From assembly GCA_025531455.1 (NCBI GenBank), contig JAMYHL010000041.1, positions 62,001 to 126,000 on the forward strand: a DNA stretch of 64,000 bases, in the 5' to 3' direction. A program made the translations under genes and the position numbers. This document shows, piece by piece, positions 43,268 to 47,120 of the stretch. Origin of the DNA: Apiotrichum sp. Y4204. Its lineage: Eukaryota > Basidiomycota > Tremellomycetes > Trichosporonales > Trichosporonaceae. Below the pieces are notes generated by a model that was not told the origin of the DNA, did no database searches, and saw only the letters and a program-made list of their open reading frames with translations. Every line of letters begins with the position of its first letter. The stretch's first letter is position 1.

Positions 43268-44139
43268 GTGCGTGCTCGCCGGGGATGCTTGTGGTGGTGT
43301 TGAGGACGGGTTTGGTGGTGAGGGGTGCCTTTGTGATGGTGACACAAGTGGTGGTGCTATGGTGGAGGCGCCCTGGTGGAGGTGCCACAGTGTTGGGGGT
43401 GGAGGTGCCACAGTGGGTAACTGACACGTCCAGGTATATGTCGATCCGGATGACTGGACTGGATGCAGAAAATAGTGCCTTCCCTCTGCCTTCTGCCTAT
43501 CTATAGTGTTGAAATGTTTACTCACCGTGCTGACATCTCTTGCGCGACACCTATCAAGTATATCGAGTGCAGTGCACAAAATTTGACGACGAGCCTGTTG
43601 CATCGAAAAAGGAACGCGACGAGCACAAGCTTGAGCGCTTGAGCGCGCTGGGAGACAGCAAGTGGTGAACTCAGAGAAGCAAGGCATCATGGGATACCGG
43701 TGCGGTCAACTTTGCGGCTCAAAAGAAGACGTGGGAGCCAGCGGAGAAGAAGCGCAAGCGCAAGCGCGCAAGCGGAGAAGAGCCGCGGCGCTTCGGAGGG
43801 AGATTGACTCGTAGTTGAAGGACCAAGGCAACGCTTTTTCTCTTTCCTACTAACACAGTCCCGTTTGCTTTACCCTCTCCCTCTTCCTTCCTAACTCCCT
43901 AGCTTTGTGGTTGACACGACGCGGATATTGACTTTGCGTTCGCAGAAGTATGGTAGTGGAGTGAGTTTAACGTTCTCCATGCAACATACATACACACAGC
44001 AACTACACGCCGGCTTCCTGACGATCTCGGCTGAAATGAATGTTCATCCTGTTGCTGGTTATCACACCCAACTCCATCACGACTTCCCCGGCCGCATCCG
44101 CGATTGCATACAACCGACTAACAAATCAGATCCATTTCC
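43268..44139. other. GLR1 3' region and upstream of the finger gene
   Basis: 872 bp. 43285-43420 is GGT/GTG-rich and includes two copies of an 18-bp unit (43375-43392 and 43398-43415). 43735-43795 is rich in GCGCAAGCG-type short repeats. 43835-43905 is T/C-rich with CTAAC, the likely promoter/leader of the next gene. No other gene is supported. Confidence 0.45.
43375..43415. repeat. 18-bp direct repeat, two copies
   Basis: Two identical 18-base copies (43375-43392, 43398-43415) separated by 5 bases, in the GGT-rich 3' flank of GLR1. Confidence 0.85.
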
Positions 44140-45134
44140 ATGGTTCCGGCCCCCCAGAATCTATATGCCCTGCCCCCTGTCCTGTTCTCATGGTGGTCGC
44201 CACTATAGATCATGTGGTGGTCTCCAAACCCACGATCGTCACCTTGATCAGCATGGATTCTGTAAAGAAAACCTGCCCCGGACAGGCCCACCGAACCCCT
44301 ACTCGATGTCTACATCTGCGACCGCTGTGGCCATCAATTTAAGGGCAAGGTATGTAGTGACAGGTGGTTTGACGGCTGACGTCCAGAACCGCCATTCAAA
44401 TTATCTTCGACATCTACAGACCGACAGCTACCGCGACCGTACGTGCAAGGAGGCCTCGGGGCCGCAGACCTGTGACCAATGTAACACGACCTGGACGTCG
44501 GGCGTGAGTTCACCTCCTCCGAAGCCCTCACTGATCCGCAGGACCGCATGGAGCGCCTTCGCGCGCACAAGCAAACTAAGGCATACAAGGAGGGTCGCTG
44601 CGGGTCGATTCCGCAGCCCAACTCTATCCCGGAGGTGGTTGCCTGTGAGAAATGCGGTGGCCAGTGGACAGGACACGTGAGGGGAGCAGTAGCTTTCGCT
44701 GACACTCCAGTACAGGAACAACATGCTCAAACAGCACCGCCGCTCTAGGGGCTATGCAAACGGGACGTGCGGAAGCAACACTCAACGTGGCTCCGTGCCG
44801 GAGACCGTAAGCTGTTCTCAATGTGGCGCATCGTGGACAGGTGTCGTATGTGTATTCTCTCTTGTCAAAGACTAATGGCCAGGGCCGTAATGACGCTCTG
44901 AAACGCCATCAGTCAACTCAGCAGTTCAAGGACGGATTCTGTGAACGCGACTCGAAGTGGGCGACTGCAAACGAGACGGTTCAATGTGACCAATGCGGGA
45001 AGACTTGGCATGGACTCGTGAGCTTCAGATAGGTTGCCTGATCAGAGCTAAAACTTTAGGGCCGGAACACAGCACTGACCGGGCACAAAGCGACCAAGAG
45101 ATACCAGCAGGGCAAGTGCGCGACTCGTAAATAG
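44140..45134 (+). CDS. protein of five tandem zinc-finger-like CCHC modules, unknown family
   Basis: The 3' five exons are clear: 44387-44503, 44542-44676, 44711-44845, 44883-45017, 45060-45134, with introns of 34-42 nt. The first finger half is in the exon ending at 44349. My 5' end (ATG 44140, intron 44193-44285) gives 237 residues in frame but is the weak part. Five copies of C-x2-C-x15-H-x10-C follow (Cys/Cys/His/Cys at 29/32/48/59, 68/71/87/98, 113/116/132/143, 158/161/177/188, 203/206/222/233), with Trp or Phe four after the second Cys and Leu before the His, as in C2H2 fingers but with longer loops. Each phase-0 intron cuts seven residues after the second Cys. Three exons are exactly 135 nt. 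Nucleic-acid or protein binding is likely but inferred. I recognise no named family. Confidence 0.78.
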
Positions 45135-45939: not shown

Positions 45940-47120
45940 TTAGCTTAGAGAACTAGACCGCCCGGGCAAGCGGCGCGAAGCGGCGTCTCACTGCTAGTCG
46001 TAGATGACATTGCACCGTACACGTAATTAGTAGTGACAATGGAAGATTGATGTACTAGCTGCTGTCTGCAGCTCTGCAGCTGTGTTTACAGACAGCTCTC
46101 TCTCTCCCTCCAGGATCGTCTTTGGCGTTTAAAGTGAAGAAGGAGGTATGGGAGCTGCACATGCATACAGAGTACAAAATTAGTCCCATCTCATGCACCG
46201 ATGCATTAGATAATAGCTCGTGAGTTGGGCGGCACCTCCAGCATATTTTGATGCCGGTGCTTATCGGGTACGCGAGCAATCAGATATGACATTCAGTTGG
46301 TTGATGATTGTTTGGTTCATGTTGATTGAGGGGCGGCCATCACAGGAACAGGAACGGAAAATCAATACCTTGCCAAGCAAGCAACCTTCGGCCGACTAAC
46401 GACTGAGAGCAACGACGGTCCTCACATCGTGTCGCGTCGCGATGGGCTGGGTATCGGCTGCGCGTATGTACTGTGAACATGCTTTGCGGCGTACTGCCGG
46501 TTGCCGGAGTAGTTCAATGCAGGACACCGGTGTCGAGATCTCCCGGTGTCGCCGCAGAAAATAGGGCACCGAATGCCCTCATCCAGCTTGCTCCGTCCAA
46601 AGAGGGACGGCGGAGCAGTAACAGGCCCGCCGAGCCCTACAAACATGCGACAATACACACACCCATGCACCCAACTTTGCAATTGTCACAGTGAGCGCAA
46701 TGTATGGGTCATGTCGAGTTGCTTCTGATGCGCCATCCACTCGAGCCCTGGTTCCTGTGTGCGTCCAACGGACGCGAGAGAGCGTGACGCGACGAGCTTC
46801 TGGCCCTGCATTCTGTTATCCTGTACTTGTCCTGCATCACGCATTGTACATCATGTAGCGCGTATCGCACTGTCTATCCAGCTGGCCGTGACTGTCATCA
46901 AACACAGTCTCACACAGCGTCAATCAGTCACAGTCTTACACATTTCGTGACCTGTGCAACTCGGAGCCTGTCGACTCGAACCGCGTCGCCGTTGTTGACT
47001 TTCATGTCGACTCTCACACGCTGCCTAGGATAAAGTTACTTGCAACCAACAGCGAAGTCCCCACAACAATACCGACATACGACGCGATCCCGAACATTTG
47101 TCCGTTCCTCAGCGTGCAAA
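45940..47120. other. gene-free stretch upstream of the 47.1-kb gene
   Basis: Nothing is supported. The first ~100 bp is A/T-rich; the rest has ordinary composition. 46870-47120 is the probable promoter/leader. Confidence 0.4.

Follow-up and report, generated by a model that had tools for sequence, protein, structure and literature searches.

A putative exon-duplicated array of five altered C2H2-type zinc modules in Apiotrichum sp. Y4204

Introduction

Zinc modules of several described types offer points of comparison for the locus reported here. In the classical C2H2 finger the second His follows the first by 3–5 residues, fingers of the C2HC class (FOG, MYT and MOZ type) are spaced at about C-x2-C-x12-H-x3-5-C, and the retroviral-type CCHC zinc knuckle has the spacing C-x2-C-x4-H-x4-C. 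In the TFIIIA gene, the fingers are spread over separate exons, with introns at similar places in successive fingers. One account of classical C2H2 fingers places 12 residues between the second Cys and the first His (PMC12264921), and in mammalian KRAB-type genes the zinc-finger domain is described as contained within one exon (PMC2443715).

Here we analyse a locus within 64,000 nucleotides of the Apiotrichum sp. Y4204 assembly (GCA_025531455.1, contig JAMYHL010000041.1; hereafter the window, C119:62001–126000 in our numbering), for which an original prediction had described five finger-like modules built by tandem exon duplication. With moderate confidence, we read it as a spliced gene for a basic array of five C2H2-derived, C2HC-type zinc modules that grew by exon duplication.

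Results

Layout of the array

The array occupies positions 44287–45131 of the forward strand and comprises five modules, each split by one phase-0 intron at the same residue. The part of exon 1 that can be traced (PTEPLLDVYICDRCGHQFKGK; 44287–44349) holds the C-x2-C half of module 1, and exon 2 (44387–44503; 117 nt) joins the H..C half of that module to the C-x2-C half of module 2. Three exons of 135 nt each repeat this arrangement one module further on: exon 3 (44542–44676; modules 2 and 3), exon 4 (44711–44845; modules 3 and 4) and exon 5 (44883–45017; modules 4 and 5). Exon 6 (45060–45134) closes module 5 with its H..C half, coding to 45131, and ends in the stop codon TAG at 45132–45134. 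Between them lie predicted introns of 37 nt (intron 1, 44350–44386), 38 nt (intron 2, 44504–44541), 34 nt (intron 3, 44677–44710), 37 nt (intron 4, 44846–44882) and 42 nt (intron 5, 45018–45059), all on the forward strand. The donors at 44350, 44504, 44677, 44846 and 45018 thus stand where the original prediction had put them, all five introns being GT..AG and phase 0, and the claimed run of three consecutive 135-nt internal exons behind one of 117 nt is likewise present. A later acceptor for intron 3 was considered and rejected, as it breaks the reading frame. From 44287 the traced product has 219 residues and a pI of 9.4, with 36 Lys or Arg against 19 Asp or Glu, and all of its 15 Cys fall inside the five modules.

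Every module spans 31 residues and follows C-x2-C-x15-H-x10-C exactly (5/5), as had been claimed; all five have Trp or Phe at +4 and share an Arg in constant position. Two further features attributed to the whole set hold for modules 2–5 and fail in module 1, where the expected Leu three residues before the His is Tyr and the G-x-C motif reads R-T-C. Modules of this copy are 29–48% identical to each other (ten pairs); their identical positions, summed over the ten pairs, number 116, whereas shuffled modules averaged 22 and 0 of 20,000 shuffles scored as high. The claim of a repeated finger-like module is borne out. The linker between modules has 8 residues once and 14 three times, while module length is constant, and a permissive pattern for the exon unit matched 4 times in the window versus 0 times in 100 Markov windows.

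A second copy and evidence for coding

A search of the 48.9-Mb assembly found the array at only one further place, the matching syntenic position on contig C89, next to the same glutathione reductase gene. Beyond these two loci there were matches at E values of 0.06–0.84 only (L013, L014, L021 and L024); inspection of parts of the first three, by sequence or lists of open reading frames, revealed no such module. In the C89 copy all five modules recur in unchanged order, and each is nearest its namesake. Identity between the copies is 83–95% in exons 1–4 and 86–90% in introns 1–4.

Within exons 1–4, read in the frames that the introns predict, the two copies differ by 34 synonymous and 16 nonsynonymous substitutions (expected synonymous fraction 0.25, P = 1.8e-10). 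Each of these exons shows the synonymous excess in its predicted frame and in no other plus-strand frame (exon 1, 5 synonymous to 3 nonsynonymous, P = 0.027; exon 2, 5 to 1, P = 0.005; exon 3, 8 to 5, P = 0.005; exon 4, 16 to 7, P = 1e-5), and successive exons use different frames, as demanded by introns of 37, 38, 34 and 37 nt. Support for the frame is weak in exon 5 (22 to 41, P = 0.025) and not significant in exon 6 (9 to 16, P = 0.21). As a point against, some antisense frames also carry a synonymous excess in exons 1, 2, 3 and 4 (P = 0.027, 0.05, 0.010 and 0.002), a signal that overlapping third positions allow, and these frames contain stops in exons 1, 2 and 4 and none in exon 3. Read through, intron 2 gives 3 synonymous and 0 nonsynonymous changes in one frame (P = 0.03), a small count.

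Constraint on exons 1–4 (dN 0.048, dS 0.453, dN/dS 0.107) equals that on the neighbouring glutathione reductase gene (3' 477 nt; dN 0.032, dS 0.293, dN/dS 0.110), at a dN/dS of about 0.11. Donor GTs are kept between the copies in all five introns and acceptor AGs are in place in three (introns 1, 3 and 4). The glutathione reductase gene itself has introns of 37, 38, 46 and 52 nt, as read by eye from alignment and sequence, and intron-like spans of 35–44 nt number 32 in the window versus 16.1 in Markov sequence (both strands), about twice as many. From these observations, we infer that the five short introns are spliced.

Toward the 3' end the copies part. Exon 5 is 53% identical between them, intron 5 42% and exon 6 65%, and local alignment ends at position 44943 of the window and restarts at 46339. 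The change from intron 4, at 89%, to exon 5 comes right at the exon border (window 44883–45131 against the other copy, L002); this abrupt loss, directly beside a well-kept intron, suggests that recombination brought in a more distant allele or copy. The C89 copy is decaying: the Cys that ends module 2 is replaced by Trp and that ending module 5 by Arg, the AG of the intron 2 acceptor is displaced by one base, and no acceptor joining the last exon in frame was found on reading the sequence. The window copy retains all 20 ligand positions, a GT..AG pair at each of its five introns and an unbroken frame running from exon 1 to the stop.

The genome looks doubled, as a hybrid or otherwise. A 5-kb stretch on the 3' side of the gene matches contig C89 at 94% identity across practically its full length, and 14 of the 15 matches in a genome search for C2H2 families fell in contig pairs with equal scores. 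Published reports that touch on this include assemblies of about 19–21 Mb in a three-strain Cutaneotrichosporon group (PMC10568926) and hybrid Trichosporon species with two sub-genomes (PMC6642101).

The 5' end

No start codon lies in frame with exon 1; in both copies an upstream stop closes this exon, with no intervening ATG. Models with a single upstream exon (introns of up to 400 nt) numbered three in one copy and five in the other, and none shared start, donor and acceptor, although one weak donor (44217) is present in both copies. Immediately upstream is a degenerate module 0 (44182–44263, forward strand), which does not share the frame of exon 1, has no intron inside, and reads CSHGG...GFC in the window and CSLC...GFC in the other copy; the second Cys is thus lost in the window. 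Its frame also looks constrained between the copies, with 8 synonymous to 7 nonsynonymous changes over 44181–44286 (P = 0.02) and 4 to 1 over 44248–44286 (P = 0.017), but 6 to 6 over 44206–44285 (P = 0.06). Across 44248–44349, constraint flips between frames near 44286 in both copies, and an intron explaining the flip was not seen; reading the sequence, we found no GT able to start an intron between module 0 and exon 1. Both copies may have a broken 5' part, the break perhaps having spread by gene conversion, or the region may include an unrecognized exon or a frameshift; it is this end that most weakens the case for a living gene.

Two other observations concern the region further upstream. 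At 43850–44130, both copies contain intron-like acceptors (CTACTAACACAG, CTAACTCCCTAG and CTAACAAATCAG) and a donor-like GTATGG near 43948, an arrangement that suggests spliced 5' leader exons. A block of 82 nt (44037–44118) is 97.6% identical between the copies, above the identity of the exons, with both changes non-synonymous in the open frame; it may be regulatory or converted.

Similarity to known fingers

A profile of ten modules, searched against the PDB, found 24 sequences at E ≤ 10, every one a C2H2 protein by name (best E 0.0066, ZBTB17/Miz-1), although the E values are weak. In 10 of the 11 domain alignments given for the three top-scoring chains, the classical finger is three residues short right after the aromatic residue, beside the intron site. 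A single-sequence search of solved structures gave three matches, all C2H2 proteins by name (best E 0.0012). In Pfam, the whole protein scored 27.9 bits to zf-C2H2_4 against a cut-off of 27 (0.9 over), as one stretch over module 1. This was the sole family above its cut-off among the 25 listed, where the best other zinc family was zf_UBZ (21.1 against 25.6). Taken singly, none of the ten modules matched zf-C2H2_4 at E ≤ 1, one matched zf-C2H2_6 (0.0022) and matches to other zinc families were weak; zf-BED reached at best an E value of 0.4, in one of ten modules, and FAR1 was absent from the Pfam families listed. Seven NCBIfam families were matched, all below their cut-offs.

With C2H2 proteins as the only structure matches by name and zf-C2H2_4 over its cut-off, however narrowly, the module is best described on these similarities as an altered C2H2 finger, related to that family and not a standard member. 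The statement that no known family has this motif was not supported, while the likeness to a C2H2 finger with a longer loop between aromatic residue and His was, the loop being three residues longer next to the intron in most alignments. Profile comparison supported kinship with C2H2 fingers; the spacing of 15 and the absent second His argue against ordinary membership.

Searches for relatives elsewhere were negative. In the protein database, the spliced protein had no homologue at E ≤ 1 (18 candidates), and the window array with part of the other copy had none at E ≤ 10 (1,087 candidates). That database apparently lacks the proteome of a close relative, since a control search with glutathione reductase returned Trichosporonales proteins but at most 80% identity among the best 120 of 8,000 matches. 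The closest named proteins there came from Apiotrichum porosum (75%), Cutaneotrichosporon spelunceum (76%), C. cavernicola (75%) and Vanrija albida (74%), which places the genome in or near the Trichosporonales. No relative of the array was found outside its own genome, in data that seem to be without close relatives. Viral contigs yielded 57 pattern matches, 0 of them confirmed, and scanning the window for Rfam families and tRNAs gave no match. A literature search on exon-duplicated or atypical fungal fingers turned up nothing on the array gene, judged by titles and the start of abstracts.

Adjacent transposon relic

About 120 bp 3' of the array stop begins a MULE-type relic. It extends from 45252 to at least 45760 in the window and is a short, non-autonomous remnant of a 3.1-kb MULE-type transposon with inverted ends. 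Longer kin of about 3.1 kb are present on contigs C57 and C177 (L042:3006–6090 and L043:2456–5569), whose stop-to-stop frames span 905 and 929 amino acids; a domain scan of the C57 element detected a MULE transposase domain.

Discussion

The claim that the array grew by duplication of intron-bounded exons is borne out by the layout: all five introns are phase 0 at the same residue and exons of 117, 135, 135 and 135 nt are all multiples of three. Sameness of residue, phase and length, with the 117-nt exon accounted for by a linker six residues shorter, suggests that an exon was duplicated together with its intron. The introns resemble each other clearly beyond shuffles in one pair of ten (introns 1 and 3; 9 of 1,000). 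As the introns are no longer alike, the modules are down to 29–48% identity and both copies have an equal number of modules, the duplications are old and precede the split of the copies.

Where the metal site lies is a separate question. The fourth ligand is most likely the Cys 11 residues after the first His, giving a C2HC set, as this Cys holds a constant place at H+11; both zinc binding and the ligand set are predicted from the residue pattern. One could instead place the site inside a single exon (H-x10-C-x14-C-x2-C), whereby each exon would be a complete domain and exon duplication would simply be domain duplication, and exons 2–5 do each hold one His, one Cys and one C-x2-C in the same order. 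We regard this as improbable: the distance from Cys to C-x2-C varies (8 residues in exon 2, 14 in exons 3–5), whereas C-x2-C-x15-H-x10-C is invariant; the array opens with C-x2-C and closes with H..C; and the PDB profile pairs C-x2-C with the His that follows it, as in C2H2 fingers. Module spacing that stays constant while the linker varies argues for a metal site within the module, across the intron.

Three other readings question the gene itself or its source. That the array consists of chance open frames and chance GT..AG pairs could draw on the lack of homologues in the protein searches; it is refuted by the frame-specific constraint between the copies, and similarity among the modules and the pattern statistics also oppose it, so that it keeps next to no probability. 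The original prediction had also suggested domestication from a mobile element; the array would then descend from the DNA-binding part of one. Transposases often carry zinc fingers and the MULE-type relic adjoins the array stop, yet the array was found at just two loci in 48.9 Mb, both syntenic, beside the same glutathione reductase gene and with the same 3' flank; the relic is unmatched at the other copy, and in a BLASTP comparison of the array with one MULE protein the best E value was 1.7. Given only one other copy and no similarity to the adjoining element, we rejected this origin as very improbable. More weight, if still well short of likely, goes to the reading that both copies are recent pseudogenes, with the gene functional until about the merging of two genomes, its 5' end then lost and the constraint purely historical. 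The copies lack a common start model, both switch frame near 44286, module 0 has lost its second Cys in the window, and the other copy is without two ligand Cys (modules 2 and 5) and the acceptor of its last exon, its intron 2 acceptor being displaced as well. Against this stand the preserved ligands, splice sites and frame from exon 1 to the stop in the window copy and a dN/dS equal to that of a housekeeping neighbour; moreover, a frame break common to both copies must either be older than their split, in conflict with the constraint seen downstream since then, or have passed between them by gene conversion.

Returning to the reading we favour, a spliced and exon-duplicated array, its history would run as follows. 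A C2H2 finger would have kept C-x2-C, the aromatic residue at +4 and, in four of five modules, L-x2-H, and would have gained three residues between aromatic residue and His, beside the intron site. The second His would have gone, with the Cys at H+11 taking the place of the fourth ligand, and the exon bounded by phase-0 introns would have duplicated in tandem before the two copies split. The modules would probably fold separately, joined by linkers of 8–14 residues, and by analogy with other finger arrays the product is probably a nucleic-acid binder. A bolder version, which we hold tentatively and think unlikely as it stands, is that of a lineage-specific finger class, turned from C2H2 to C2HC by a three-residue insertion beside the intron and a ligand shift to H+11, multiplied by exon, with skippable exons and sites completed only after splicing.

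If the bolder version is true, exon skipping could vary the length or content of the array, phase-0 exons being skippable without loss of frame. Omission of one internal exon would bring two half-fingers together in frame and so offer an easy way to make variant arrays. A real C2HC site would mean that a DNA-binding module very common in eukaryotes has been re-wired in nature. The locus also offers a finger array that seemingly grew with its introns kept, and a pair of copies in which the metal ligands are kept in one and lost in the other.

Compared with known systems, the array resembles the TFIIIA gene in the placement of introns across successive fingers and differs in the module. It shares the ligand order C, C, H, C with the retroviral-type CCHC zinc knuckle, whose spacing is met in none of the five modules. 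Three Cys and one His as likely ligands link it to C2HC fingers of the FOG, MYT and MOZ type, although the spacing C-x2-C-x15-H-x10-C is different. The closest likeness in sequence is to classical C2H2 fingers (Kruppel/TFIIIA-type; zf-C2H2_4 and zf-C2H2_6), with which it has in common C-x2-C, the aromatic residue at +4 (5/5), L-x2-H (4/5), tandem arrangement and basic character. Unlike these, all five modules have 15 rather than 12 residues from the second Cys to the first His, none has a second His at 3–5 residues, the Cys at H+11 standing instead, and the array does without a TGEKP-type linker and carries an intron inside every finger.
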